Positions 5,361 to 63,895 of a DNA stretch of 64,000 nt are shown one piece after another. A program made the translations under genes and the position numbers. Source of the stretch: an uncultured Victivallaceae bacterium (GTDB lineage Bacteria; Verrucomicrobiota; Lentisphaeria; Victivallales; Victivallaceae). The stretch lies in NCBI GenBank assembly GCA_944392655.1, contig CALXXL010000003.1, positions 1 to 64,000 of the forward strand. The letters are read 5' to 3'. Numbering within the stretch: position 1 is the stretch's first letter; the number at the start of each line of letters is the position of its first letter. The notes beneath the pieces are model-generated. The model was not told where the DNA came from. It made no database searches and was given only the letters and a program-made list of their open reading frames with translations.

Positions 5361-6472
5361 GTAAACCGTCAATAGCTTCATCCGACCGTAATATGGCAAC
5401 CGGAGCCATATCGGATAACGGATTAAAATATTATAATATTGCCGAACCGCCATTTAAAGTAGCGGGGTTGCCGTTTTTCTATATTGATGGAGTTTTCCGC
5501 CGGCTTCCGGCCAATCCGGTTCCGGCGGCGCCTAATGAAGGGGTGGAGCATCTCTCCTGGCATACGGCCGGAGCGCAGTTGCGTTTCCGCAGTAACAGCT
5601 CCCGGGTTACGGTAAAAGTTGAGTCGAGATTCGACGAACTTATGGATCACATGCCGCAAACCGGTATATGCGGTTGTGATCTGTACTATGCCCTGCCCGG
5701 TGAACCGCTGCGTTTTTGGGGTGTAAGCCGGTATGGAGTTGGAGAACTGAAGTACGAGACGGAGTTGTTCAACTGCATGAATACCGCCCCTGTTATGCGG
5801 GAATTTGTGATTCATTTTCCGCTTTACAACGGAGTAAAATCATTTGAGGTCGGATTGGATGAAAATGCGGAGATAGAGCCACCTTCAGCCTGGAGCAAAA
5901 CCGGTGCGATTATCTGGTACGGCACCAGTATTCAACAGGGTGGTTGTGCCAACCGTCCCGGTATGGCCTCCACCAATATATTGAGCAGGAAGCTCAATAT
6001 GGAGATAGTAAATCTTGGTTTTTCAGGTTCCGGGAAAGGAGAAAAAGAGATTGCCGAACTGATGTGCCAGATTCCTGATCCGGCAATGTTCATATTGGAT
6101 TACGAAGCCAATGCCATGACGTTGGAAAATCTCTCCGCCACCCTTCCGGTACTGATTGATATTCTGAGGGAAAAATATCCGGATTTGCCTATAGTGGTAA
6201 TAAGCCGGATAAAATTCTCTCATGATCAGCTTGCTGACCTGGAACACGATACCAGTCGCAACTCCCGTTTGGGCGGAGCGGAAATTCAGCGTAAAGAGGT
6301 TGAACGCCGCCGGCAAAATGGTGATGCCAACATCTACTTTATCGATGGTGGCACGCTCCTGGGAGAAGATTACGAAGAGTGTACAGTTGACGGCATACAT
6401 CCAACCGATCTCGGGTTTTACCGGATTGCGGAAAACCTGGAAGCGCCGTTGAAGAAAATTCTCGGATTATAA
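5357..6472 (+). CDS. SGNH/GDSL-family hydrolase with N-terminal GxDLY-type domain
   Basis: A predicted esterase or deacetylase of 371 aa with no signal peptide. The N-terminal beta-sandwich region contains GCDLYY (the GxDLY motif common before this subfamily). The hydrolase domain begins near residue 185 with YGTSIQQG (nucleophile S191), then NLGFSGSG, YEAN (block III Asn) and DGIHPTDLGF (D345 and H348). The complete Ser-Asp-His set argues for an active enzyme. Related proteins in gut bacteria remove acyl groups from carbohydrates. Translational coupling to metY through the ATGA overlap is odd, because a role in methionine synthesis is not obvious. Confidence 0.85.
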   Translation: MSKPSIASSDRNMATGAISDNGLKYYNIAEPPFKVAGLPFFYIDGVFRRLPANPVPAAPNEGVEHLSWHTAGAQLRFRSNSSRVTVKVESRFDELMDHMPQTGICGCDLYYALPGEPLRFWGVSRYGVGELKYETELFNCMNTAPVMREFVIHFPLYNGVKSFEVGLDENAEIEPPSAWSKTGAIIWYGTSIQQGGCANRPGMASTNILSRKLNMEIVNLGFSGSGKGEKEIAELMCQIPDPAMFILDYEANAMTLENLSATLPVLIDILREKYPDLPIVVISRIKFSHDQLADLEHDTSRNSRLGGAEIQRKEVERRRQNGDANIYFIDGGTLLGEDYEECTVDGIHPTDLGFYRIAENLEAPLKKILGL

Positions 6473-6483
6473 AATTATAAATA

Positions 6484-6756
6484 TCATCGACGCGGTGTAT
6501 CTGGCGGAGTATCTCCCGAATCGGAGAACTCCCGCCATTCACTGCTCTCTCCATCATCTTTTACCAGGACTTCAATCCGTTTTTCCAGCGAATCGAGTTT
6601 TTTCCGGCAGTATTGACTTAAAGCGTTGCCGCGTTCAAAACGATTGATCAACTCTTCCAGCGGTAAATTGCCGCTTTCCATCTCTTTCAATAAAGTTTCC
6701 AACTCCTGCAGCGCCGCCTCAAATGTGGTTTCCGGGGCAATTTCTATTTTGGCCAT
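6484..6756 (-). CDS. xseB: Exodeoxyribonuclease VII small subunit
   Basis: The small helical subunit that binds XseA to form the single-strand exonuclease Exo VII. The core ETTFEAALQELETLLKEMES followed by LPLEELINRFERG is diagnostic. I start at the ATG at 6756 (90 aa) because the in-frame ATG further upstream lies inside the GAGGAG ribosome site. The acidic, proline-rich tail after residue 70 is unremarkable. It is 29 nt downstream of the antiporter gene and far from xseA (46822), so the two subunits are expressed from separate operons. Confidence 0.93.
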   Translation of the reverse strand: MAKIEIAPETTFEAALQELETLLKEMESGNLPLEELINRFERGNALSQYCRKKLDSLEKRIEVLVKDDGESSEWREFSDSGDTPPDTPRR

Positions 6757-6785
6757 AATATAACAACTCCTCATTCAGCAGATAT

Positions 6786-8150
6786 TTACAAATATTCATC
6801 ATTTTCCGGTGGCGGCAGAGTAAAATTCCTGTCATCCAACGGTTCGAACGGAGTTTTAATCCGTTCGATAATCAATCTCACCAGTGTTGGTATTGGTAAA
6901 GTTGTAACGATGGAAAGAATAATGACAGCATTAAAGAAATTGGCATCCAGCATTCCCAGCTCTTTCCCAATTGATGCCGCTGCCAGAGTAGCTGAAAGTT
7001 GCGGTACAGTCATAAGGCCGGCGCAGAAAGCCTGACTTCCCGGATATTTGCAAATCCGCAAAGCAGAATATCCGGATATAATCTTACTGCCGATCAAACC
7101 GAGAACAGTAAGTACAATAATCGTCATATTACCGGCAAAATTATCTGCGGCAAAGAGAATGCTGAAATCGGTCTCCATCCCGATTGATACAAACAGAAAC
7201 GGGATTAAAAAACCATATCCTATGCCTTCAAATTTATGAAAAAGCATAATTCGCTCACGCCGCTGAATAAATGGTGCAAGCGAAAGTCCTGCGACGAATG
7301 CGCCAACCACCAGATTGATTCCCAGCACCTCTCCGGCCAATACTGTTCCAGCGATAATCATCAGCAAAGTAGTCACGAGTCCGTCTTCAGAGTCTCCGAC
7401 CAGCCGGGTGAAAAAGCGTGCCAGTCGCGGCACCAGAAGCCATGCGCCGATAAGATACAATATAACCACGATCAAAAAACCAAGCATAAAATTATTGCCG
7501 AAAACCCCCGGATACGAATCAAACACAGAGAGAGTTCTTTGGCTCAGTTCAACGCCGTCGCCCAGATTCTGACGGTGCATCTGCACCGCTACAGCAAGCA
7601 GAATAATACTGGCGATATCGGTAATAACGGTAGAGATAAGTACTGCGGCGCCAAATTTGGTCTTCCCCAATTTCAGTTCACGAATCACAGGGAATACAAT
7701 CCCTACTGAATGTGATGCAAACAGAGAAGCATAAAGAAGTTTTCCCGGCAGATCATCCGGCCGGAAATAGTAATAGACAAAATATCCGGTCATTGCCGGA
7801 ATAATAAAAGTCATGACACTGAGCATTGCAGTCGGCAGTTTTACTGAACCTAAAGATTTGAAATCTGCCTCCATACCGGCAAGAGACATCAGAAATACCA
7901 ATCCTAAAGCTCCCAGTGAGGTAATAAGGTTATTCGTATGATCTGCAATAACCGCCGGAGATGCAACACTTAGAAAGCTGAGTCCTTCAGATAATTTTCC
8001 GACTAAATCGATTCCACTGGGGCCGATCAACATCCCGACAAGCAGCAAGGCAATTACCCCCGGAATTTTCAGCCGGCGCAATAAAAGCGGAGCTATTGTC
8101 ATAGCGATCATAAACACCAGAAAAATTATCAGAAAAAGGTCATTGGTCAT
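6786..8150 (-). CDS. Kef-type cation:proton antiporter (CPA2 family)
   Basis: A 454-aa integral inner-membrane protein with about 12 hydrophobic segments along its whole length and no C-terminal RCK or TrkA-N domain. PGVIALLLVGMLIGPSGIDL near residue 30, FLMSLAGMEADF near 82 and NLVVGAFVAGLSLAP in the second half are typical of Na+/H+ or K+/H+ exchangers of the CPA2 group. The ion is not determined by sequence. First gene of a leftward pair with xseB. It has no obvious functional tie to xseB. Confidence 0.88.
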   Translation of the reverse strand: MTNDLFLIIFLVFMIAMTIAPLLLRRLKIPGVIALLLVGMLIGPSGIDLVGKLSEGLSFLSVASPAVIADHTNNLITSLGALGLVFLMSLAGMEADFKSLGSVKLPTAMLSVMTFIIPAMTGYFVYYYFRPDDLPGKLLYASLFASHSVGIVFPVIRELKLGKTKFGAAVLISTVITDIASIILLAVAVQMHRQNLGDGVELSQRTLSVFDSYPGVFGNNFMLGFLIVVILYLIGAWLLVPRLARFFTRLVGDSEDGLVTTLLMIIAGTVLAGEVLGINLVVGAFVAGLSLAPFIQRRERIMLFHKFEGIGYGFLIPFLFVSIGMETDFSILFAADNFAGNMTIIVLTVLGLIGSKIISGYSALRICKYPGSQAFCAGLMTVPQLSATLAAASIGKELGMLDANFFNAVIILSIVTTLPIPTLVRLIIERIKTPFEPLDDRNFTLPPPENDEYL

Positions 8151-8263
8151 TGCCCACCTGCTTCAACATATTTTATATTTTATGCAATAATATAATCCGG
8201 TGAACCTTATTACGTCAAGAATTTTCCCGTAAAAAATGTTTTTTCCTGCCCAAAACAATTGAT

Positions 8264-8293
8264 TTGACGTTAAAAAAATTATATATTTATAGT
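8264..8293 (+). promoter_or_regulatory. Candidate sigma70 promoter for the GNAT gene
   Basis: TTGACG (8264-8269) and TATAGT (8288-8293) are separated by 18 nt. The predicted start would leave a leader of about 17 nt that includes AAGGAG just before the ATG. Confidence 0.55.
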
Positions 8294-8316
8294 AAAATCA
8301 AATAAGGAGCGCAATA

Positions 8317-8826
8317 ATGAAAGGGAAAAAAATAGAGTTCAAACAAGCGGAATCAACCAAAGAACTCGCCACCATAAGAAGTCTTGCCAAGGAGATATGG
8401 CCGCCGGTATACAGTCCGATACTCTCAGAAGAGCAGCTTGATTATATGATGGAAATGATGTATTCCATGCCAGTGCTGCACCGGGAAACAGAAGAGGAAG
8501 GGATAAAATATTATATCGTCATGAAAGATAATCTTCCGATTGGATTTACCTCATTCGGCCCTTATGAAGATGGAGTAGCCAAGCTGCACAAACTCTATCT
8601 GGATGAAAAGTTCCGTGGTAATGGGTTCGGCAGGCAGATGATAGAATTCATTGCAGATAAAGCACGCGAAGAAGGATACAGCAGATTGATCTTAAATGTC
8701 AATCGTGAAAATGCGCCGAGCATTGCGGTTTATCACGCCTGCGGCTTAAAAGAGCTTGGCGAAGTTGATGCCCCCATCGGCAACGGCTTTTATATGAATG
8801 ACTACATTATGGGAATGGATCTGTAA
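8317..8826 (+). CDS. GNAT-family N-acetyltransferase
   Basis: A 169-aa acetyl-CoA-dependent acyltransferase, single GNAT domain, cytoplasmic. Motif A appears as LYLDEKFRGNGFGRQMIEFI (acetyl-CoA pyrophosphate loop RGNGFG), followed by LILNVNRENAPSIAVYHACGL (motif B, including the conserved Asn and Tyr). The start is supported by AAGGAG about 9 nt upstream. The substrate is unknown. It is monocistronic, between its own promoter and a shared terminator. Confidence 0.88.
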   Translation: MKGKKIEFKQAESTKELATIRSLAKEIWPPVYSPILSEEQLDYMMEMMYSMPVLHRETEEEGIKYYIVMKDNLPIGFTSFGPYEDGVAKLHKLYLDEKFRGNGFGRQMIEFIADKAREEGYSRLILNVNRENAPSIAVYHACGLKELGEVDAPIGNGFYMNDYIMGMDL

Positions 8827-8842
8827 TAATTAAAGATACACA

Positions 8843-8876
8843 AAAAGAGCGCCGGGATTTTCCGGCGCTCTTTTTA
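8843..8876. terminator. Bidirectional terminator between GNAT and GH20 genes
   Basis: A 9-bp GC-rich perfect stem (8847-8855 with 8862-8870) is flanked by A and T runs, so it serves both converging genes. Confidence 0.85.
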
Positions 8877-8883
8877 TATTTAT

Positions 8884-11505
8884 TCAACGATAATCTCTGA
8901 AATTCAAGCCTTTATATTTCAACCGGCGATAGAATTCATTCATGCGCCGTTCAAAATCTGACCAGTTTTTCAGTTTTCCTGGAGTCCAGAGGCACTCAGC
9001 CACGGCTATTCCGCGCGGATATAGCTGATATCCGGCCTGGCGTTCATCCTGAATATATTCCGTCCACAGTGCGGTCTGCCCTCCAAGAACCTGATCATGA
9101 TACTCTTCCGGCACACTCTCAAGAGGATCAAAGGTATAACTCTTACGCAATCCAGTTATCCCGCTGGTTATGGCCAATGGTTCTTTTTCCGGTACGTCCT
9201 GATAATAGTCCAGATAGTTGGTTGACGCATTATTATTAATAATCTTATGTCCGTGGGCCAACGCTTTCAGCATCACCTCTGGTCCGAGATAAGCCTGAAT
9301 TAGCGTATTTTTAGAGAGATCAACCGTCATAATCTGTTCCCATCCCATCATATGGCGTCCGTGCTTTTCCGCGATCGCCTCAACTCTCCGGGTAAAATAT
9401 GCCTGCAAGCCATAGGCATCCCAGCCATTTTCTTTCATAAAAGCGCTGCACTTCGGACAGGCATTCCATAAATCAGCCGGTAACTCGTCGCCACCCAAAT
9501 GAAGATATTCCGAGTCCGGAAACAACTTGATGTTCTCAACGATCAATTTCTCAATAAACTCATATGTCTCCTCCTGGGCGGCACAGTATGTGCGACCATA
9601 ATATGGCCGGATGAAATGTTCCGGAGTATTTATTCTTCCTTCAAACGGAATATCTCTCTGACATGAAAATTCCGGATATGCCGCCAACGCGGCATTTGCA
9701 TGAGTTGGCATTTCGATTTCCGGAATAACCGTAATAAACCGTTTTCTGGCGTAATCGACGATTTCCCGCACATCTTCAGCAGTATAATATCCTCCGGCTT
9801 CGCCACCGCGCCACGCACCAATTTCAATCAATTTTGGCAACGCATCAATCTCTATCGACCACGAAACGCCATCATTGTAGTGCCACTGAAAACGATTCAT
9901 TTTCATCTCCGCGAGCATGTCGATAAAGCGGAATATAAAATCTTTGGACATAAAATGCCGTGCGGTATCCAGATGCATTCCGCGCCACTCAAATGCAGGA
10001 TTGTCCACTATTGTCAAAACCGGCAAGCGCCAGACACGGCTGTTAAATATCCCTCTTTCGATCTCTGGAGGGAACAACTGCCGCAGAGATTGAATACCGT
10101 AGAAGATTCCGCGCTCGGTGATCGCGGAAATCTCAATTTGCTCAGGAGTTATATTCAGCTTATATCCTTCTTCTCCGACCCCGTCAATCTCCGGCTTGAT
10201 ATCAAGTACAATCGGAGTTGAAAATTCTGCTGCCCCGGCGGGGGAGATTATCGGCAGCGTATATCCGGTTGCCGGAGTCAGGAGTTGCCGCAAGTATTCA
10301 GCCTGACGATTCTCCGCTTCATCTTCAGCTACAATCGCAGCTTTTCTGCTCAAAATAAACTGCCCGCGGCCGAACTCCATCTTTTCCGGACGCGGAATTA
10401 TGTTAACCGTTTCATCTGGAGTTAATATCTGCAAATCGGTTATCGCGACCCTTACCGGATAGCCAAGCGTGGTGCTTACTGCTTTGCCTCCATAAATATC
10501 AAACAACTCTTTACTGACATTATACTCTTCACGGTCGCAGCTGAAAGTACTGAATACGACAACAAACTCATCCATATCCGCCAACTCAGGACAATATAGT
10601 GTATATGTATCCAGCTGCCGGTCATAATTGTCGATTTTCAAAACCGCAAGATCGTCTGAGTCGATCTTTTCACGCAATGAAATATATACCACGCCGCTGC
10701 GTGGCTGAATATTTATATCCGCCAACGATAAACTTATTCCTCCGGCCTTGCCTTTTCCGGCACTGTTTTTTACCATGCGCCAGGCTGCTGATTCCATTTT
10801 TCCATGGCACGAAGATAATTCAAGCACCTTTTTACCGTCATATTCTCCCAATGCTACACCGGCAGGAGCTATTTCTCCCAATCCGGTGTTATATACCTTC
10901 TTCAGCTCTTCACTGCTGTTATAAGTTGAAAAGTCATCCACCAAACGATTCTTAAAATCTTCAATCATTGCTGCTTTCTCCGACACATCCCATTCCAACT
11001 CATCAACATCAAGTTTACCTGGTTTGCCCGGCTCAGTAAACCATGAAATCAATAATACACATGAATCAAAATTCAACAGTTCCGGACAATCGAGTTTTAC
11101 CTCGCACCACTCATTAACCGGCAGTAAAAAACGCTGTTCCGCAATATTATCGCCAACTTTTTCCGGACGTAATGTAACTATTGCAGTAATTGGGTCGCAC
11201 TCTCCGGCGCATCCGCGCAATTTCAATTTAAGTGCAGAGTTTCTATGGCCGGGCGGAAATTTTATTTCCCGCATAAACACCGCATAAGTCTGCTCTATAG
11301 CCCCAAAAGAGGCGAACTGGTTCCCCTCCTCTCTTGTCAGAGAACAGAGCTCCGGGAATGGATTATTGGCGTCAAATACAACATAATTCTTCTTAAGAGT
11401 CTCGACTCCGGTATAATTTTCGAAATCATCAAATCCATTCGCCAAAGGACATATTGCGGTCATACCCGACAACATAAAGAAACTGATCAATTTATATTTT
11501 ATCAT
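8884..11505 (-). CDS. Secreted beta-N-acetylhexosaminidase (GH20)
   Basis: Removes terminal GlcNAc or GalNAc from glycans such as mucin or chitobiose. An N-terminal signal peptide (about 24 residues, to LANG) is followed by about 340 residues of beta-rich accessory domains. A GH20b domain comes next (GYKLNITPEQIEI, GIFYGIQSLRQLFP), then the TIM barrel from about 500 (WRGMHLDTARHFM). The catalytic pair is D673-E674 in HLGGDELP. The 873-aa size is large for the family owing to the accessory N-terminus. It is divergent from the GH35 gene, so the two may share control. The exact linkage is not predictable. Confidence 0.93.
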   Translation of the reverse strand: MIKYKLISFFMLSGMTAICPLANGFDDFENYTGVETLKKNYVVFDANNPFPELCSLTREEGNQFASFGAIEQTYAVFMREIKFPPGHRNSALKLKLRGCAGECDPITAIVTLRPEKVGDNIAEQRFLLPVNEWCEVKLDCPELLNFDSCVLLISWFTEPGKPGKLDVDELEWDVSEKAAMIEDFKNRLVDDFSTYNSSEELKKVYNTGLGEIAPAGVALGEYDGKKVLELSSCHGKMESAAWRMVKNSAGKGKAGGISLSLADINIQPRSGVVYISLREKIDSDDLAVLKIDNYDRQLDTYTLYCPELADMDEFVVVFSTFSCDREEYNVSKELFDIYGGKAVSTTLGYPVRVAITDLQILTPDETVNIIPRPEKMEFGRGQFILSRKAAIVAEDEAENRQAEYLRQLLTPATGYTLPIISPAGAAEFSTPIVLDIKPEIDGVGEEGYKLNITPEQIEISAITERGIFYGIQSLRQLFPPEIERGIFNSRVWRLPVLTIVDNPAFEWRGMHLDTARHFMSKDFIFRFIDMLAEMKMNRFQWHYNDGVSWSIEIDALPKLIEIGAWRGGEAGGYYTAEDVREIVDYARKRFITVIPEIEMPTHANAALAAYPEFSCQRDIPFEGRINTPEHFIRPYYGRTYCAAQEETYEFIEKLIVENIKLFPDSEYLHLGGDELPADLWNACPKCSAFMKENGWDAYGLQAYFTRRVEAIAEKHGRHMMGWEQIMTVDLSKNTLIQAYLGPEVMLKALAHGHKIINNNASTNYLDYYQDVPEKEPLAITSGITGLRKSYTFDPLESVPEEYHDQVLGGQTALWTEYIQDERQAGYQLYPRGIAVAECLWTPGKLKNWSDFERRMNEFYRRLKYKGLNFRDYR

Positions 11506-11746
11506 TCCATCTCCTTATTTTCACCTCAATCTATCTCTGAGGATAAAAATTTTATAAACTACCAGTATTTCCGCTCTTTTTCAAGTAGGAAAATGTTTTT
11601 GAAACGATTAAAAGAAAAAATATCACTATTTTACCGTTTTTGAGCTTATAACTTAGATTGAATTTGTTATAGAAAGTGCTATTTTGACAAAACATAAAAA
11701 TTATCTTTTTCCAGATAGAGAAATATTATATTTTCAGGAGAATAAA

Positions 11747-13504
11747 ATGAACAATGTCGAGATGACTTCAGGCAAACTGTATATAGATGGCCGGGAGACC
11801 AGGATTTTATCCGGTGCGATCCACTATTTCAGAATACGTCCAGAGCAATGGCGTGACCGTATTTTAAAAGCTAAGCAGATGGGTTTAAATACTATTGAAA
11901 CCTATTTTGCCCATAACCTTCATGAACAGCAGCAGGGCAAGTTCAACTTCTCTGGAGATCTTGATATTGAGCGTTTTCTTGAGGAGATCAAAGCTGCCGG
12001 AATGTACGCGATAGTCCGTCCCGGACCGTATATTTGCGCGGAGTGGGACAACGGTGGTCTGCCGCCATGGCTGATGAACATTCCAGGCATTGAGTTCCGG
12101 GTTATGAACCGTCAGTTTCTTGCAGCAGTAAAATGTTATCTCGATCAATTGCTGCCACGTTTGAAAAAATATCTGTACACTAATGGCGGTCCGATAATTA
12201 TGGCGCAAATAGAAAACGAATACGGCAGCTTTGCCTGTGATCATAATTATATGGAAGAGGTACGTAAAATTTTCCTGAACAATGGAATTGACGTACCTCT
12301 ATTTACCGCCGACGGTCCGGGAGACGGTTCTATTCAAGGCGGTACTATTCCAGGTGTATGGCAGACGTTGAATTTTGGGAGCAATGCCAAAACCGCTTTT
12401 GCCAAAGGTCTGGAATACCGGCCGGATGATCACCTTTTCTGCATGGAATTCTGGAATGGCTGGTTTGACCACTGGGGCGAACAGCATCATACCCGCACCC
12501 CGGAAGACGCGGCGGCAGCTCTGGATGAAATACTCTCCTGCGGTGGGTCGGTAAATTTCTATATGTTTTGCGGCGGAACTAACTTCGGCTTCATGGCTGG
12601 AGCGAACGGCTTGGGGGAAAAACCGGACGATTATGCGCCTACCGTAACCAGCTACGATTACGACTCTCCGCTCTCTGAATGTGGCGATCCCACCCCGAAA
12701 TATTTTGCCTTCCAACAGGTAATAAAGAAACATTTTCCGGAGGCATTTACGGGAACGCCAGAACCGTCGCCCAAACAAAGTTTCGGGAAAATAAAACTGA
12801 CTCAAAGCGCCAAACTGTTTGACGAACTGGATAATCTTGCGACTCCGTCAGAATCGATTTTTCCTCCAACGATGGAAGAGTGCGGCCAAAATTACGGTTT
12901 TATTCACTATCGCACAACTATTTCCGGACCACGAGATGAATTTCTGTATTTTCCGGAAGTTCGTGACCGGGTATGCGCCTACCTCGACGGTAAATATTTA
13001 GGCACTGTTTTCCGTAATGACCAGGATCGCAAAATCAACTTTTCTCTTAAAGAGAAACGCGAGGCGACGCTGGATCTGCTGGTTGAGAATACCGGCCGGA
13101 TCAATTACGGTCCGCAAACCGGGCGTGATGTAAAAGGTCTGCCGAAAGGAGTCTGCTCATGTTGGCAGAAGTTATGTGGTTTTAAGACCTGGAATCTCGA
13201 ATTGACCAATTTGAATGATATCAAATTCAAACCGTTGAAGATGGAAGATAATCAACCGTCATTTTACCGCGGCATATTTTACGCGGAAACTCTTGCAGAT
13301 ACCTTCCTGCGTTTTCCGGGAACAAAAGGGGTTGTCTGGATTAACGGATTCAACATTGGCCGCTATTGGAATATCGGTCCGGGAAACACCTTGTATATAC
13401 CGTGGCCTCTGCTGAAAAAAGGGGAAAATGAGATTATCGTATTTGAACTTCATCATTTAAATTCAGATGACGTGGAATTCTGCGATACGCCTGAGTTAAA
13501 TTAA
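11747..13504 (+). CDS. Beta-galactosidase (GH35)
   Basis: Hydrolyses terminal beta-galactosides. The 585-aa form starts at the ATG at 11747, six bases after AGGAG; an upstream TTG (11684) lacks such a site. No signal peptide is seen, so the enzyme is probably cytoplasmic. The barrel contains GAIHYFRI, VRPGPYICAEWDNGG, the acid/base E158 in IENEYGSF and the nucleophile E234 in CMEFWNGWFDHWG. The C-terminal beta domains carry VWINGFNIGRYWNIGP. It is divergent from the GH20 gene and 25 nt upstream of a second hydrolase, suggesting joint glycan breakdown. Confidence 0.94.
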   Translation: MNNVEMTSGKLYIDGRETRILSGAIHYFRIRPEQWRDRILKAKQMGLNTIETYFAHNLHEQQQGKFNFSGDLDIERFLEEIKAAGMYAIVRPGPYICAEWDNGGLPPWLMNIPGIEFRVMNRQFLAAVKCYLDQLLPRLKKYLYTNGGPIIMAQIENEYGSFACDHNYMEEVRKIFLNNGIDVPLFTADGPGDGSIQGGTIPGVWQTLNFGSNAKTAFAKGLEYRPDDHLFCMEFWNGWFDHWGEQHHTRTPEDAAAALDEILSCGGSVNFYMFCGGTNFGFMAGANGLGEKPDDYAPTVTSYDYDSPLSECGDPTPKYFAFQQVIKKHFPEAFTGTPEPSPKQSFGKIKLTQSAKLFDELDNLATPSESIFPPTMEECGQNYGFIHYRTTISGPRDEFLYFPEVRDRVCAYLDGKYLGTVFRNDQDRKINFSLKEKREATLDLLVENTGRINYGPQTGRDVKGLPKGVCSCWQKLCGFKTWNLELTNLNDIKFKPLKMEDNQPSFYRGIFYAETLADTFLRFPGTKGVVWINGFNIGRYWNIGPGNTLYIPWPLLKKGENEIIVFELHHLNSDDVEFCDTPELN

Positions 13505-13529
13505 TTAAATTTATTGAAAGGATTCATAG

Positions 13530-16367
13530 ATGAAATTATTTTCGATGATTGGCTCAATGGCGCTAAGCGTCTTACTGGTTGCCGCGTCAGAAAATGAATT
13601 TGACGACTCAAAAGTCTCGTACAAAGACAATCTGATGCGCTATTCTGAATACGGTCATTTGCTGGATAAAGTCTATTACGATACCGGCTCAAAACTGGAC
13701 ATAGAGTGTTACGATCTGCAGGAGGCAACAGCGCAAGGCAGAGATATTCCTGGCGAACTGTTAAAAGATGGTCTGGAGTTGCAGGAGGAATTACGGCAGG
13801 ATTATGCAAAACTCGATTCTGTGCGTAAAAATCTGCGTTATGAATTGCATCTGGCATATCCGTTTGACAGTTATTTTCTGGCGGTTGAGAATCTGGTTGA
13901 TGCCCCGGCAACCTATTATGACTGGGCCGGCTTCTGTAAATTCGTAATCAGCTGGAGTAACGGCACCACTATTGAAATTCCGCTCAACTCATTTACCGGA
14001 GCCAGACCGATACAGGGCTATGATAATGGCGGCGGTCCGGTGGACTGCTTCGTCGTGTACGGGCGGAAATCTGCCTCTTATATTGCAGTATCACGCTTCC
14101 AACTGCCAGATCCGCTTCCTCCCGGAGATGCGGTATTGACCATCACCGGATTTGACCATGACAAAGGTGGAGCTGCCGCCCCGGTCAAAATTTCTGTTTT
14201 CGGACATCAAATCTTCTCCGGTGCCAATCCGTTCCCCAAGGTCGGCACATCCAACTTTACGTTAAAGATTCCGGAATCCTACCTTCAGAACGTTCCGGCC
14301 GCCAGCGATGAAAATCCTGCGCTCGCCCAACGTCTTGACCAGCTGCACCGCGATATCCTGCAATTTGAATCAAGCGCAAATGAGAAGATAGACTCATTTA
14401 TCAATCAGACAGCTCCATATACAGAAAATCTGGAATACCGCTCTGCGGAAAAGCCGGTAAATCCGGCGGACACAGACCAATTTATCCGTGCAATTGACAT
14501 AACTGATATTCTCTGGGGTGTGGACAGATTGAAACATCCGGGACAATATTACGATTATGAACATCTCGGCAAAATGGCTGCCGAAGCCCACGCGAATCTA
14601 TACTCCATTGTGATCGGACGTCCCGGTGGATATGCGGATGAAGTTGAACAGATCAGAACGTTTGACCGGTATACCGGAGTTCCATTTTTAGTGTGGGCAG
14701 ATGGGGATAAATTTGATAATGGTGACATTATTTCCACCACCTATTACGGCAATTCAGAAAAGGTCATTGAAGATTACCGTGACTTTGTTTCCGAATACGC
14801 CAAGATGCACAATTTCATCGGCATTCAGATAGACGAACCGATTATACCTGACAATGAAAAAGGTTATGAACCTCTGGCCAATAATGCCGGCTATATGGCA
14901 GCTTACCGTGAATTTGCCGCACAGCGCAACACAGAGCTGGAACAACTCTCCTTGCCTCTGCTTGACACAACGCCTTTTCCAGCTGGTAAAGTTCCTGAAA
15001 CTGCAACCGACTGGGTTCAATACATCGAATACCAGCAATTCAAAGCCGACCTAATGGCAAAGCATTTCCGCAACTTATATAACACAGTAAAACAGGATGG
15101 GTTACTGGCTTCCATTGTCTGCATGGATATGATGGCGCGTAATGTTATGGATGCCAGTTATATCTCCATGGGCAAAGCCATGCCATATATGGGAACGGAC
15201 TTATATGACAATGGCTCAATTCGGGAATCAATATCGCTGCAACTGCTGAAAAGCGCCTCGTCCGGCAAAGTTATAATGTGGCCGGGAGCTGGTTATTCCT
15301 GTAAAACCCCGCGCAATTTTGAACGTTCAATGATAAATGGGCTGGTATGGGCTGACGGCATTCACATCTGGACGCTGCTTTATTGTGCAAAATATCGTGA
15401 TCCCAACTTTTTCTGGGCTTTAAACGACGGGCAGATCGGCAAGACCGACAACGGTATGGAAATAGCCGAGACCTGGGACTTGGCCTACTGGCCAATTGTG
15501 TGCGATATTTTTGGCAAAATTGAATCAATCGAACCGGAACTCGCCGGACGTCAGTCGGCAAATCCGGTGGCGCTGTTGCTTTCGGAGCGTACAATATCCA
15601 CGCTTGTTCCGCAAAACCGTTCCAACAGCAAATACTACATTGACTTTTCCGGAACCTACTCCGGTATTGCCGGGTTCGGGATACCGACAGATGTACGCTA
15701 TCTGGAAACCTTGCGTGACATGGATGAAATCCCCTACAAAGCGATGATTCTTACCGATGCCTTCGCCATTTCCGACAAAGATGCCGCTGTGCTGAAAAAA
15801 TATGTTGAAAACGGCGGCACTCTGTTCATTACCGGCAATACCGGCAGCCGTGACGAATGGAATCAGCCGCGTGACAAATGGGCTTTAGCTGATATAAGCG
15901 GACGCAACGGCGCCGACTCAACTATGGCTCCGGCGGAGATCATCGATGTAAACGGAGTCAAGCTCGGCTGTAATCCTTATGGTAAAGGCGTATGTTACAG
16001 CACTGAGGAAGCTGATTTCGGTCAGGTTATAACCGCAATTCCTGAAAACGGCTTATCCGGGTTGTTAAAACCGCAGCATGAAGAGATTATAAGAATAGTC
16101 ACTGAAAAAGCACTGACAGAAAATGCCCCGGTAAAAGTAGCCGTGCCTTTCGGTACAGTTGTGAATATTCAGAAGAATAAACTTGGTCATTATCTGGTAT
16201 CACTGGTAAATTACGACAATAAATCCAATGGACAAACTGCCGTAATCACCATGCCGTACCAGGCGGAGTTGTCGGCGATTGGCGGAACATTATCATCCGG
16301 AGAAGGAGATGAATTCACTGTAACTTATGATGGTTACGCAATAATAGTTATAAAACCGGAAAAATAA
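13530..16367 (+). CDS. Large secreted TIM-barrel glycoside hydrolase-like protein, family unassigned
   Basis: A 945-aa protein with a signal peptide (MKLFSMIGSMALSVLLVAAS). Residues about 25-260 form a beta-rich region. A barrel-like domain begins near 325 (IDITDILWGVDRL) and carries GIQIDEP with D435 and E436 at a strand end, a plausible catalytic acid. From about 720 there is a flavodoxin/GATase-like domain (AAVLKKYVENGGTLFITG) like the trimerisation domain of GH42 beta-galactosidases. I cannot assign a known GH family. An AAGG site precedes the ATG, 25 nt after the GH35 stop, so it is co-transcribed. Confidence 0.7.
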   Translation: MKLFSMIGSMALSVLLVAASENEFDDSKVSYKDNLMRYSEYGHLLDKVYYDTGSKLDIECYDLQEATAQGRDIPGELLKDGLELQEELRQDYAKLDSVRKNLRYELHLAYPFDSYFLAVENLVDAPATYYDWAGFCKFVISWSNGTTIEIPLNSFTGARPIQGYDNGGGPVDCFVVYGRKSASYIAVSRFQLPDPLPPGDAVLTITGFDHDKGGAAAPVKISVFGHQIFSGANPFPKVGTSNFTLKIPESYLQNVPAASDENPALAQRLDQLHRDILQFESSANEKIDSFINQTAPYTENLEYRSAEKPVNPADTDQFIRAIDITDILWGVDRLKHPGQYYDYEHLGKMAAEAHANLYSIVIGRPGGYADEVEQIRTFDRYTGVPFLVWADGDKFDNGDIISTTYYGNSEKVIEDYRDFVSEYAKMHNFIGIQIDEPIIPDNEKGYEPLANNAGYMAAYREFAAQRNTELEQLSLPLLDTTPFPAGKVPETATDWVQYIEYQQFKADLMAKHFRNLYNTVKQDGLLASIVCMDMMARNVMDASYISMGKAMPYMGTDLYDNGSIRESISLQLLKSASSGKVIMWPGAGYSCKTPRNFERSMINGLVWADGIHIWTLLYCAKYRDPNFFWALNDGQIGKTDNGMEIAETWDLAYWPIVCDIFGKIESIEPELAGRQSANPVALLLSERTISTLVPQNRSNSKYYIDFSGTYSGIAGFGIPTDVRYLETLRDMDEIPYKAMILTDAFAISDKDAAVLKKYVENGGTLFITGNTGSRDEWNQPRDKWALADISGRNGADSTMAPAEIIDVNGVKLGCNPYGKGVCYSTEEADFGQVITAIPENGLSGLLKPQHEEIIRIVTEKALTENAPVKVAVPFGTVVNIQKNKLGHYLVSLVNYDNKSNGQTAVITMPYQAELSAIGGTLSSGEGDEFTVTYDGYAIIVIKPEK

Positions 16368-16378
16368 ATTATTACGGT

Positions 16379-16412
16379 AAAAAAAACGGCGGTATATCCG
16401 CCGTTTTTTTTA
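16379..16412. terminator. Bidirectional terminator between the hydrolase and priA
   Basis: A 7-bp GC stem (16386-16392 with 16398-16404) extended by A/T pairing has eight-base A and T tracts on either side. It serves both converging genes. Confidence 0.9.
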
Positions 16413-16413
16413 C

Positions 16414-18645
16414 CTACATCAAATTCTGCGGATCAGCATCCACATAAATTTCAGCTCCGGGATAACGGGTCAATGCCAGACTCCGCAACTTTTCCCGCAA
16501 TCTTTTCAAACGTTCACCGCGAATTACAATTTGATAACGGAACTTCCCTTTTATTCTCTCCACCGGTGACGGCAGAGGATCGGTGACAATTACCGAGTCA
16601 TTCAACACACTCTCCAGTTCATGCCGGCAATAAAGAGCGCATTCCCGGCATACAGCTTCGTCCTCACTGCGAATATGAAGAATTATCATGTGCCCGAACG
16701 GAGGGTAATTCAACAACTGCCGTACTGCGGTATCATACTGATAAAATCCGCGATAATCGTTTTTCAGAGCCAGAGTTATCGCATCATTGCCCGGCGAAAA
16801 TGTCTGTATAATCACCTCTCCCGGCAAATCACCGCGTCCGGCACGTCCAGCCACCTGGGTAAGCAGCTGAAATGTTCTTTCCGCCGCCCGGAAATCCTCA
16901 ATATAAAGTCCCTGATCAGCGTTAATTACACCGACCAGAGTTATATTGGGTATATGGATCCCTTTGGCGATCATCTGAGTTCCGATAAGAATATCTATCT
17001 CGCCTCGCTGCATCCGGTTCAGCATCGTTTCATGAGCATCAACCCCTCGCATGGAGTCTGAATCCATACGTCCTATTCTGGCATTCGGAAAGAGCAAATG
17101 CGCCATCGCTTCAATCTTTTCAGTTCCGCTGCCGGGATAACGGATTCCCTCCGCGCCGCATTGCGGACAACGCTCGGGAGCAGGCATGGTGTTGCCGCAC
17201 ATATGACAGATCAGCACCCCTTCACGCCTATGATAAGCATACGAAACGGAGCAGTCCGGACATCCTGGCACAAAACCGCATGCTTCGCATCTCATTTCGC
17301 GTGAGAAGCCGCGCATATTGCGAAAAAGAATGGTCTGTTCTCTGGCGGCAAGCCGTTCATGTATTGCATTTACAAGCATGGGGGAAAAGAGTTTTGAATG
17401 CGGCCCGGCAGGATCGCCGTCTTCTTTTTTTTCACTATTTCCGGCGTATTCCTCCGCCCCCATGCGCAGATCAACCACCGTCATTACCGGTGGAACGGCC
17501 GACCCGGCGGTGGACTTCATCTCGCACAGCAGGTATTTTCCGGATTCAGCGTTGTAAAATGATTCTATAGATGGAGTTGCCGAACCAAGTATTACTATGG
17601 CATTCTCCATTTTTCCCCGTACAACAGCCACATCTCTTGCGTTATATCTGGGAGACTCGGATTGTTTATAACTGCCTTCATGCTCCTCGTCTACAATTAT
17701 GAGTCCCAGGTTGTCAAATGGAGCAAAAAGAGCCGATCTTGCACCTATGGCAATTTTCACCTCTCCTCTGCGCATTCTTGTCCACTGATCAAAGCGTTCT
17801 GCCTCGCTCAAACGGCTGTGCATAACGCTGACTTCATCGCCGAAACGGGCGCGAAACCGGCGTACCGTCTGCGGAGTGAGAGCTATCTCCGGCACCAGCA
17901 CGATCGCAGCTTTCCCCTGAGCGATAACTTTTGCAATCGCCTGTAAATAAACTTCAGTTTTTCCGCTGTTAGTTGCGCCGAAGAGCAGCATGACGCGGCG
18001 CTTTTCCTCGCCTGAAAGCATACGGTCGAACTGGTTCAGTGCGGCCTGCTGTTCGCCGGTAGGCGTCAGTGGTTGATCGGGCATAACCTCTTCGGTAAAC
18101 GGATTGCGGAAACTGCGTTCTTCGCTGACAGCAAGAAATCCATCTGCCACCAAGCGTGTTACCACCGATGCGCCGCATCCGGTCATAGTCATAATCATCT
18201 TTAACGCAGCTGATTTTTCATCTTTCAAAAATTGAATAACCCGGCGTTGCTTTTCGGTTTTCAGAGCTTTTTCCGGCTGAGGCTCCGCTAAAGAAAAAAC
18301 TTTAATCATTTTCTCTTTTATGCTGGCTTTCCGTACAGCTCCTGGCAGCAGAGTTTTCACTGCACATTCCATAGAAGTGCAGTAATAATGTGCCATCCAT
18401 TCGCTCAGGCGGAGCAGTTTTTCCGGAATAGACGTTTTATTGGGCGGCAGTGCGGCAATCTGTTTCAACTTATTTGCGGTGTCCGGCGTTTCGACCAGAG
18501 CTGTCACGAATCCCAACCGTCTGCTGTGTCCGAATGGAACCAGCACTTGAGACCCCGGCTTGATTTCGGCAATCAATTCTTCCGGAATAATATAATCAAA
18601 GTATCGATCCAAAGAGAGATCAACAATCACTCTGGCGATATTCAT
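16414..18645 (-). CDS. priA: Primosomal protein N' (replication restart helicase PriA)
   Basis: A 3'-to-5' helicase that reloads the replisome at stalled forks. In its 743 aa an N-terminal 3'-DNA-binding domain (FDYIIPEELIAEIKPGSQVLVPFG) is followed by Walker A (FGATNSGKTEVY), the DEEHE box, GSATPS, then a zinc region with eight cysteines (CEACGFVPGCPDC, CHMCG, CPQCG). Helicase motifs V and VI (GTQMIAKGIHIPN, QVAGRAGRG) follow. All features are intact. It is a single leftward gene; HU is divergently transcribed 270 nt away. Confidence 0.96.
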   Translation of the reverse strand: MNIARVIVDLSLDRYFDYIIPEELIAEIKPGSQVLVPFGHSRRLGFVTALVETPDTANKLKQIAALPPNKTSIPEKLLRLSEWMAHYYCTSMECAVKTLLPGAVRKASIKEKMIKVFSLAEPQPEKALKTEKQRRVIQFLKDEKSAALKMIMTMTGCGASVVTRLVADGFLAVSEERSFRNPFTEEVMPDQPLTPTGEQQAALNQFDRMLSGEEKRRVMLLFGATNSGKTEVYLQAIAKVIAQGKAAIVLVPEIALTPQTVRRFRARFGDEVSVMHSRLSEAERFDQWTRMRRGEVKIAIGARSALFAPFDNLGLIIVDEEHEGSYKQSESPRYNARDVAVVRGKMENAIVILGSATPSIESFYNAESGKYLLCEMKSTAGSAVPPVMTVVDLRMGAEEYAGNSEKKEDGDPAGPHSKLFSPMLVNAIHERLAAREQTILFRNMRGFSREMRCEACGFVPGCPDCSVSYAYHRREGVLICHMCGNTMPAPERCPQCGAEGIRYPGSGTEKIEAMAHLLFPNARIGRMDSDSMRGVDAHETMLNRMQRGEIDILIGTQMIAKGIHIPNITLVGVINADQGLYIEDFRAAERTFQLLTQVAGRAGRGDLPGEVIIQTFSPGNDAITLALKNDYRGFYQYDTAVRQLLNYPPFGHMIILHIRSEDEAVCRECALYCRHELESVLNDSVIVTDPLPSPVERIKGKFRYQIVIRGERLKRLREKLRSLALTRYPGAEIYVDADPQNLM

Positions 18646-61522: not shown

Positions 61523-62443
61523 ATGAAGAAAAAGTTTACATTGATTGAACTTCTGGTGGTAATTGCCATCATCGCCATTCTGGCCGCGATGCTGTTACCG
61601 GCTCTTGGCAAAGCCAAAGACCTTGCCCAGAAAGCCAGCTGCAGCGGCAACCTGAAACAGGGCACACAGGCGTTCACGCTGTACAGCAACAGCAATAACG
61701 GCTGGATTGTAACCAATCCGCATGGTTGGGCCTGGTATCAGTATGGCACCATGCCGAGTGAACTGAGCCTTGAAATGGATCCGATCAACCTTGAAAATGA
61801 AGATGGCAACTATCCAACTGTTTCTTCGGATGAAGATGATGATTACACCAAGATGACCAACTTTGAACGCCGTAAAGTTACCGGTTGCCCGGCTAACGTA
61901 GACAGTATCACCTCTCCGGAAAACTGGTGGGCAGCAGCTTACGGTACTCCGTATGCTGATTCAAGGGATGACAATTTTGATGACGAATACTCCTATCGTA
62001 AAAAACGCTTTGAATTCAACATTACCAATGAAGATCTTGGTGGTGATGTAGACAGTTGGGCAAATGGCAGTGTTGGTGACATGGCTGTTGGTTGCTATGT
62101 CCGTATCGACCTCTGCCCGTCCCCGACCTCTTACATTCTGTTGGCTGACACTGGCATTCTCAATGGCAGTACAGCTTCCAGCAACTACTATAGTAGCGAA
62201 AGCCAGTCTGCAGGTAACCAGGTTCCGGTATTCGTACGTTCAGCCAGCGGTCGTTGGGGGGACTACGGTGCAATGATCGCCCGTCGTCATGGCGATGTTG
62301 CCAACGTTGGTTATGGCGATGGTCACGTTGCTGACACCAAAGACAAGACCCAGATTCTTGACGTTTCCAAGATCGGCAGACTTGCCAACAAGGGCGGCAC
62401 GACCTATTATGATATTGACGAAGGCGAAGAAGTTGATTATTGA
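61523..62443 (+). CDS. Type II secretion pseudopilin-like protein (prepilin N-terminal, H-x9-DG)
   Basis: A 306-aa exported protein. The class III prepilin signal is [20 protein letters not shown]: charged leader, then F and E at the +1 and +5 positions after cleavage, and a hydrophobic helix. A beta-rich domain follows and the end has [20 protein letters not shown], the H-x9-DG pattern common in PVC bacteria (DUF1559-like). Many such paralogs per genome are normal in Lentisphaerae and Planctomycetes, and their roles are largely unknown. Isolated between its own promoter and terminator, it is probably abundantly expressed. Confidence 0.85.
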
Positions 62444-62473
62444 TATCACATCGCTAAATATCTTGAACGATCA

Positions 62474-62504
62474 AGCACCGGAAAAATCCGGTGCTTTTTT
62501 TATT
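62474..62504 (+). terminator. Terminator of the pseudopilin-like gene
   Basis: A 9-bp stem (62474-62482 with 62487-62495) with a 4-nt loop is followed by a run of T. It insulates the peptide cassette downstream. Confidence 0.9.
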
Positions 62505-62567
62505 TTCCGATAAAATTTTCATAGGCTCAATAAAAGCTATAATTTTTTATAGCAATAATTAAAATGC

Positions 62568-62657: not shown

Positions 62658-62771
62658 ATGGAATACAAATCACCTCAAATCAGCGAATTGGAAACTCAGC
62701 TTTATTGTGATTCAGAAATTGGTTCATCGGTAGATCAGCCGATTGATCCAGGCGATCAGCCCTGGAGCTGA
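62658..62771 (+). CDS. Candidate RiPP precursor peptide, 37 aa
   Basis: A short reading frame too small for ordinary gene callers. The leader-like half MEYKSPQISELETQ contains YxxP followed by I and L, the motif bound by PqqD-like RiPP recognition elements in lasso and related systems. The C-terminal half holds one Cys, a Gly-Ser-Ser and a duplicated DQP motif (VDQPIDPGDQPWS), ending in Ser. AGG lies six bases upstream of ATG 62658. Ten bases separate its stop from the kinase-like gene. It has no homolog I recognise. Function as a precursor is inferred from size, leader motif and neighbours. Confidence 0.75.
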   Translation: MEYKSPQISELETQLYCDSEIGSSVDQPIDPGDQPWS

Positions 62772-62780
62772 GTTACGTTG

Positions 62781-63641
62781 ATGAACGACCTGATACTTGC
62801 AATCGGCCGCAATAATATAATTCTGCGATTGTCTCAAGACAGTGGAGTTAAATTATCTGAATTAGCTGAATTGTTGGGTTTATCGGTAACCCCGGCTGCA
62901 TCCACAGTTTGTGCTGATGTGCTGGCGGATACAGGAAATGATTCTGTATGTAGCGATGAATCTCCCATTTTTACAACCGGGCCATTAGCGGTATTTTTCA
63001 ACCGTAAAGAACAGAATTTCAGATTAAATTTTCTTTATCCGTTACCTGAATTGAAACTGGTACATAAAATATATATTTATCAGGTAATGATAACATTTGG
63101 CGTACTTTCAGCTATGCTTCGCGGAATAAAGTTAATTCCGGTTCATGGTGCGTTACTGGACAACGGTTCTGAAGCGTTATTATTATGCGGCGAAAGCGGA
63201 GTAGGCAAGAGTACCACGGCCCGCCGTTGGCGGGAATCCGGTGGTCAATGTTATGCAGACGATCTTATTTTGATCGATTACAGTGGTAAAGAGTTTTTTG
63301 CCCACCCATTACCGACCTGGAGTATATGTAAAGAGTCGCTTAAAGGTCAATTTTATCCATTCAACCGCAAGCTGCCTTTAAAATCGGTATTTGGCTTATC
63401 CAGAGGAGAAGTCAGGGAATATATTGCCCCGATTCCTGAAGATGATTTTCTTGCCCAGCTTTACCGTTCGGCTTTCTTCCACATTCTGGCTATTGGCGGC
63501 TGTCTGCCGGAAAAGGAGCAGAAGCGACTTGGAAATACAGTTTGGTCTGGGGTAGAAAACCTGGCGGCAAAATTTCCACCTTGCGGACTGTTTGCTCATC
63601 TTAAGGGCGACCTGAAATCAACACTCGGGGGTTATTTATGA
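62781..63641 (+). CDS. HPr-kinase-like P-loop protein of a peptide-modification cassette
   Basis: A 286-aa protein. An N-terminal region (about 1-115) has no known domain. The second half matches the HPrK catalytic core: VHGALLDNG with H122, the P-loop GESGVGKST (about 137-145), and YADDLILI with the Asp pair (about 160-161). The HPrK-type N-terminal domain and HPr-contact motifs are not seen, so a peptide or another small molecule is a likelier target than HPr. Similar proteins occur as ScmC in SynChlorMet cassettes and as the kinases of some lasso clusters. ATG 62781 is chosen over a TTG just before. Its stop overlaps the next start (ATGA). Confidence 0.85.
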   Translation: MNDLILAIGRNNIILRLSQDSGVKLSELAELLGLSVTPAASTVCADVLADTGNDSVCSDESPIFTTGPLAVFFNRKEQNFRLNFLYPLPELKLVHKIYIYQVMITFGVLSAMLRGIKLIPVHGALLDNGSEALLLCGESGVGKSTTARRWRESGGQCYADDLILIDYSGKEFFAHPLPTWSICKESLKGQFYPFNRKLPLKSVFGLSRGEVREYIAPIPEDDFLAQLYRSAFFHILAIGGCLPEKEQKRLGNTVWSGVENLAAKFPPCGLFAHLKGDLKSTLGGYL

Positions 63642-63895
63642 AATTAAACCCGTTTGCAGTAATGCGTAAATCTCCGGACGGCAGCGGCACACTGTTTGAT
63701 CCATCCAGCAATAAAGCGCTGAAGCTTAATGTTACCGGAGTGATACTGTGGGAAGCGGTAGCTAATGGAGCGAATGAGGCCGAAGTTACAGAAATGTTAT
63801 TGAAAAAATTTCCCGGTCTCACTCTTGAGCAGGCAAAATCCGACGTAAACTATTTTATCGGGCAGTTGGAAAAAAAATCCTTATTACAAAGATAA
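63638..63895 (+). CDS. PqqD-like RiPP recognition element protein
   Basis: An 85-aa small protein of the PqqD family, which binds precursor leaders and presents them to modifying enzymes. The typical elements are LKLNVTGVILWEAVANGANE (strand, turn and helix), EMLLKKFPG, and the helical EQAKSDVNYFIGQLEKKSLL ending. It is translationally coupled to the kinase-like gene through ATGA. No radical SAM enzyme, transglutaminase-like protease or Asn-synthase-like cyclase is present before the window ends 105 nt later. Confidence 0.9.
   Translation: MKLNPFAVMRKSPDGSGTLFDPSSNKALKLNVTGVILWEAVANGANEAEVTEMLLKKFPGLTLEQAKSDVNYFIGQLEKKSLLQR

Follow-up and report, generated by a model that had tools for sequence, protein, structure and literature searches.

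A three-gene cassette at the end of the window

Three genes lie on the forward strand close to the end of the window, by which we mean the whole 64,000-nt stretch of DNA that was analysed. They encode a 37-aa peptide with a YxxP motif, a kinase of the HPrK fold and a discrete recognition element (RRE) of the PqqD fold, and the features of the locus are collected in Table 1. A previous sequence-only reading of this DNA had placed three open reading frames here, the last two coupled by ATGA, and both points were confirmed in the sequence; the kinase motifs that it named (H122, GESGVGKST at residues 137–145 and D160-D161) are exact when counted from the ATG at 62,781.

Table 1 Features of the cassette and of the related locus on contig C9.
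Feature	Position	Strand	Remarks
Pseudopilin-like protein, weak H-X9-DG end	61523–62443 of window		Upstream of cassette
Intrinsic terminator of the upstream pseudopilin-like gene	62473..62506	+	10-bp stem, 6 GC pairs, T tract
Weak sigma-70-like promoter candidate, TTTTCA-16-TATAAT	62516..62543	+	10/12 matches
Precursor peptide, LppA-like, 37 aa, MEYKSPQISELETQLYCDSEIGSSVDQPIDPGDQPWS	62658..62771	+	Homologous YxxP small ORFs before kinase in relatives; C9 paralogue
Leader RRE-binding motif, Y3-x-x-P6-x-I8	62664..62681	+	Both Y and P unchanged across an alignment of 15 precursors
Presumed core from Gly22, G-S-S-V-D-QPIDPGDQPW-S	62721..62768	+	Tail QPIxPGDQPW common to C9 paralogue; cleavage site inferred
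HPrK-fold kinase, LppK-like	62781..63641	+	ATG 62781; alternative start TTG 62778
Invariant His122 of kinase	63144..63146	+	H116 in aligned fragment
P-loop GESGVGKST	63189..63215	+	Aligned with HPrK 1ko7 and 1jb1
Invariant Asp160-Asp161	63258..63263	+	Homologue alignment
Invariant PTWS motif of kinase family	63312..63323	+	Homologue alignment
Discrete RRE, PqqD fold, LppB-like	63638..63895	+	ATGA overlap with kinase stop; PF05402 41 bits
3811-aa giant protein ending ...SKLA	C9 (L131) 6314–17749; with precursor to 17888		Domain profile search; no kinase beside

The cassette had also been described as following a terminator and a candidate promoter. The terminator stands, and sets the cassette apart from the upstream pseudopilin-like gene. 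The promoter is weak: eight sigma-70-like sites of this kind were found against 4.6 expected, so the candidate is no evidence by itself, and no perfect sigma-70 pattern occurs in the window. The contig (200,759 bases) extends past the window, and the genes downstream of the cassette, named by eye from sequence, are convergent and encode a copper-type P-ATPase, a SpoIIE-like phosphatase and CarB. As the contig stretch read beyond the window holds no further cassette gene, the locus consists of three genes and no more.

We compared the cassette with other contigs of the same Victivallaceae genome (G000, 2.3 Mb; contigs C1, C2, C3, C6, C9, C10, C14, C15, C16 and C20 are mentioned below) and with relatives; L-numbers such as L038 denote stretches around loci in relatives or, for G000, in the own genome. 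Statements about the genome as a whole are based on targeted profile searches and on selected stretches.

Kinase, recognition element and precursor

The kinase scores below every curated cut-off, reaching 23.6 of 33.3 bits for Hpr_kinase_C, 22.4 of 240 for TIGR00679 and 59.3 of 125 for ScmC. Nevertheless, its structural model (pLDDT 77, with the first 52 residues poorly modelled) matches the HPrK and PEPCK folds, and the histidine, the GK of the P-loop and the DD pair are invariant across 11 homologues. Searching the genome contigs with the single window kinase returned nothing; a search with a kinase alignment found the family, which 47 of 137 Victivallales genomes carry. The named records with kinase loci are Lentisphaeria and Victivallales metagenome-assembled genomes, several of them from sheep, goat or deer gut. 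The own genome also holds a lone kinase nearer to ScmC (101.9 of 125 bits; contig C16, L005 8421–9311, minus strand), which lies beside methyltransferase-like genes and near which neither a precursor nor an RRE was seen.

The PqqD-like protein is recognised by PF05402 with 41 bits (cut-off 23.4). It has no match in the PDB by sequence; its fold does match despite that, the model (pLDDT 85) agreeing best with leader-bound TbiB1 (TM 0.90, 1.2 Å) and also with a FusB1-type B1 with leader. The ATGA overlap between kinase and RRE is preserved in L038–L041.

The leader of the window precursor, YKSPQISELETQLYCDS, contains the YxxPxI motif and a Pro separated by nine residues from an aromatic one, and has neither the HQ nor the FET of the leader consensus described below. 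Small ORFs with the pattern [YW]xxPx[LVIAFY], starting between 300 bp before and 120 bp after the start of the kinase ORF, occur in 16 of 42 kinase loci against 1.25 expected (Poisson p ~5e-13), so that the gene set exceeds chance. Looser rules for the small ORF give more precursor-like loci than these 16; L040 and L041 have no precursor before the kinase. Homologous precursors are thus conserved in related genomes and the P-loop protein is far from a true HPr kinase by TIGR00679, and there is good support for taking the precursor, HPrK-like kinase and RRE as a RiPP-type set, as the sequence-only reading did. In one relative (L119, G096:C539), four near-identical small precursors (MKYVAPKMVVVSRRVVNT...GSG) are arrayed upstream of a single kinase and RRE.

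Among 41 precursors, 37 have a Gly 10–18 residues past the Pro, which in 25 is part of G-x-[ST], and 38 have a Ser within the presumed core, the remaining three having none. A C-terminal Ser, which the sequence-only reading had taken as a clue to the class, does end the window precursor (Ser37), but only five of the 41 precursors share it and the paralogue on C9 has Ala there; it is a weak clue, and a phosphorylation site at a C-terminal Ser would not be conserved across the precursors. The potential phospho-acceptors differ between the window and C9 precursors, and our best guess for the window peptide is Ser23 or Ser24, after Gly22, rather than Ser37. Precursors in L044, L045 and L068 end in Ser after a short core that is otherwise Ser-free (for example ...AEAAVIPTPVS) and are candidates for true C-terminal Ser phosphorylation. 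A neighbouring gene in L045 fuses an S24/S26-like domain to NTP_transf_5, and a neighbour in L044 looks alike.

Dispersed parts of the pathway

The window locus has no SpI-like leader peptidase, NTP transferase or MsbA-like transporter, and we therefore only assume that the cassette uses these three functions in trans. Candidates for each are scattered over the own genome. The single SpI-like peptidase candidate is on C15 (50.7 bits to TIGR02228), NTP_transf_5 (PF14907) is found on C1, within a run of polysaccharide genes, and on C20, and C10 carries another RRE together with an MsbA-like ABC transporter. A second precursor-kinase-RRE set is located on C14. In the closest relative loci, the precursor, kinase and RRE are followed by a SpI-like peptidase, NTP_transf_5 and an ABC exporter in varying subsets. 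The SpI-like peptidase of the relatives preserves Ser, His and Asp and matches SEC11-type signal peptidases and sigpep_I_arch.

Precursors behind giant repeat proteins

In many relatives the precursor-kinase-RRE set comes directly after a very large repeat protein, and many of these giants have a common C-terminal domain ending in ...LA. A profile of this domain matched 28 of the 137 genomes, 27 of which also hold the kinase family (47/137 overall); leaving out the ten genomes used to build the profile, the co-occurrence was 17 of 18 (p 4e-10, a statistic that ignores shared ancestry). Pairing with a precursor also extends to giants away from any kinase, 13 of 23 of which (C9 counted) have a precursor starting between −4 and +29 bp from their stop codon. 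We found no earlier report of a link between such peptides and giant proteins in the literature.

The only protein with this C-terminal domain found in the own genome is the giant on C9 (Table 1), and 22 bp behind it lies a paralogous precursor, MLEYEAPAIIEENSTLAHALEPGGVISQPITPGDQPWA. Its profile match is weak alone (E 0.06), but an ungapped alignment with the window precursor gives 17 of 37 identical residues, a value to be set against 100,000 shuffles of which none exceeded 11, and both peptides carry the QPIxPGDQPW tail. For two giants of another genus, the tails read PGDNPW and PGENPW. Since no kinase lies close to the C9 precursor and its core tail is that of the window peptide, the kinase-RRE pair of the window plausibly acts on both. 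An ORF of 204 aa upstream of the C9 giant (L131, 3960–4574), in which the stretch YNAPKIYEI occurs, was rejected as a precursor, as it is long and lies among phage-like genes; the stretch may be chance.

Further precursors were found on C1 (two), C2, C3 (at 181 kb), C6 and C14, which brings the number of precursor genes in this 2.3-Mb genome to eight or more. Those on C1, C2 and C14 come after giants, and three sets accompany ScmE-like radical SAM genes. On C1 (L143, 1856–11903) one ScmE-like radical SAM gene separates two giants, behind each of which comes a near-identical precursor (MIDYKKPELKGFNGWGEFVEGSTGTPPPF[N/D]CQNAPLDED). On C2 (L152, ~8328–8417, minus strand) the precursor MVKKICYEKPELSVFPGWDVEFIEGATKDPMPEGCLLGAPEDLI lies behind a 2016-aa giant, and no enzyme gene was seen near it.

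Proposed mechanism and alternative readings

We read the window locus, with a probability of about 0.7, as a phospho-RiPP cassette (A-K-B) of the Linear Polyphosphorylated Peptide (LPP) type in Victivallales that is separated from the other pathway genes and tied to a giant protein. Gene content, precursor conservation, the two folds, the dispersed parts and the pairing of precursors with giants come directly from sequence and statistics; the chemistry is drawn from what is known of the family. The RRE would capture the YxxP leader through Y3, P6 and I8 and present the 37-aa precursor to the kinase, and one or more Ser residues of the core, which is short and acidic, would be phosphorylated by that kinase. 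Removal of the leader would follow in trans, probably by the SpI-like peptidase of C15, and the product would probably be exported by the MsbA-like transporter on C10, beside another RRE, and probably be decorated further by the NTP_transf_5 enzyme of C1 or C20. The mature peptide would belong with a giant repeat protein.

A wider proposal, which we hold tentatively and at somewhat less than even odds, is that in Victivallales a whole class of modified small peptides, both phosphorylated and radical-SAM-modified, are dedicated partners of giant secreted repeat proteins rather than free natural products. Every giant would have a leader-core peptide gene of its own directly behind it, and the peptides would be matured by a shared and dispersed kinase, RRE, peptidase and transporter and would help to assemble, anchor or display the giant.

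It is unlikely that the peptide is instead a small regulatory or chaperone-like partner which is not exported and whose phosphorylation state controls the synthesis or secretion of the giant. Such a role would suit the HPrK type of the kinase, since HPrK is a regulatory kinase, the adjacency of giants and precursors independently of a kinase, and a window locus with neither protease nor exporter. However, relatives encode a leader peptidase and an exporter within the same gene run, most precursors have the cleavable-looking Gly past the Pro, and the cores are variable.

The sequence-only reading had considered a SynChlorMet-type radical SAM RiPP, and the cassette could be imagined to lend its kinase and RRE to ScmE-like enzymes encoded elsewhere. 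The genome does hold ScmE-like radical SAM genes, three in number and with a separate YxxP precursor next to each, the window kinase weakly matches the HPrK-like ScmC and its RRE resembles the PqqD-like ScmD of these systems (TIGR04248 to TIGR04251), and relatives in L050, L054 and L055 combine precursor, radical SAM enzyme and kinase. We nevertheless regard this as improbable, because the scores stay under the curated cut-offs (59 of 125 for ScmC, 27 of 100 for ScmD and at most 327 of 400 for the ScmE-like proteins), because no radical SAM gene is present at the window locus, follows it or occurs in the A-K-B-S loci closest to it (L038, L039 and L058), and because the precursors beside radical SAM genes differ from that of the window and form a type of their own (YxKPEL..F.GW...G-x-S/T, in which Cys is frequent). 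Two of these genes form stand-alone pairs with a precursor (L141 4383–5672 and L142 5040–6329, on C3 at 181 kb and on C6); the precursors of these two pairs share the pattern YxxPxL..F.GW...EG-x-[ST], and neither is recognised by an NCBIfam model.

Lasso peptides of the paeninodin type (K, B1, NTP transferase) had been suggested as the other possible class, and a degenerate locus of this kind, in which a threaded peptide would be phosphorylated by the kinase on its C-terminal Ser and the cyclase would be encoded elsewhere, appears highly improbable. The leader and RRE seen here are of the lasso type, the window precursor does end in Ser, and the kinase is related: the nearest Bacillota match found is a paeninodin-type lasso kinase (25.8% identity), and among the closest plasmid matches are lasso clusters from Paenibacillus and Butyrivibrio. 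On the other hand, the window locus has neither cyclase nor B2, no lasso gene follows it, and no Asn-synthetase-like macrolactam cyclase was found within ~16 kb downstream or in the flanking upstream genes that were read. The best match in the genome to PF13471, the model for the transglutaminase-like B2 peptidase, reaches 11 bits against a cut-off of 26, the leader motif is YxxP and not the WxxP of Bacillota, the terminal Ser is not conserved in the family, and relatives hold SpI, NTP transferase and ABC genes instead of cyclase and B2.

Finally, the P-loop and DD of HPrK could suggest a normal HPr kinase/phosphorylase region in which the small ORF is spurious, a reading refuted by the TIGR00679 score and by a small ORF that is conserved across genera and paralogous within the genome.

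If the preferred LPP-type reading is correct, this is a reduced and dispersed pathway in a new phylum which would be tied to giant proteins. LPP-like machinery outside Bacillota, repeatedly associated with giants that share one C-terminal domain, gives these peptides a concrete and testable partner and role. Moreover, the reduction of the locus to A-K-B, together with a further precursor that lies behind a giant on a different contig, offers a compact system for studying kinase specificity and maturation in trans.

Comparison with known systems

The RRE is like the lasso RREs TbiB1 and FusB1 (5v1u, 6jx3) in its fold and, to judge from the YxxP motif, would be expected to bind its leader in the same mode, but it has only ~19–20% identity to them and no lasso pathway beside it. 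A YxxPx-type RRE-binding motif is found in LPP and lasso leaders alike (PMC13381572).

The best match to the cassette is provided by the LPP RiPPs (lppA-K-B-S-D-N; Popov et al. 2026, PMC13381572), an assignment made on gene order, precursor and folds. Since that published class has A-K-B as its core, the word "undescribed" in the sequence-only reading holds only in part; we found no literature on such systems in Lentisphaeria. In LPPs, one core Ser is phosphorylated multiple times in an LppK-dependent manner and the leader is removed by the SpI-like LppS; the role of LPPs and paeninodins is stated as unknown (PMC13381572). The window locus shares with them the order A-K-B, an HPrK-like kinase, a discrete RRE and the lack of a cyclase, as well as a short precursor with an N-terminal YxxPx[V/I/L] RRE-binding motif and a variable C-terminus. 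The P-x9-aromatic spacing of the window precursor recalls the Px9Fx[T/A] motif of LPPs (PMC13381572), relatives of the locus have the SpI-like peptidase, NTP_transf_5 and MsbA-like transporter, and one NTP transferase of the own genome, that on C1, is inside a polysaccharide gene run. The differences are equally clear. LPPs are stated to be restricted to Bacillota (PMC13381572), whereas the host here belongs to Victivallales, and the window locus comprises A-K-B only, with the other parts dispersed. The full LPP leader consensus, YxxPxVLxHQxIxFETxxS (PMC13381572), is absent from the window leader, and the window precursor has Asp at the LPP −1 position. Lastly, and unlike those of LPPs, the Victivallales precursors are associated with giant repeat proteins.
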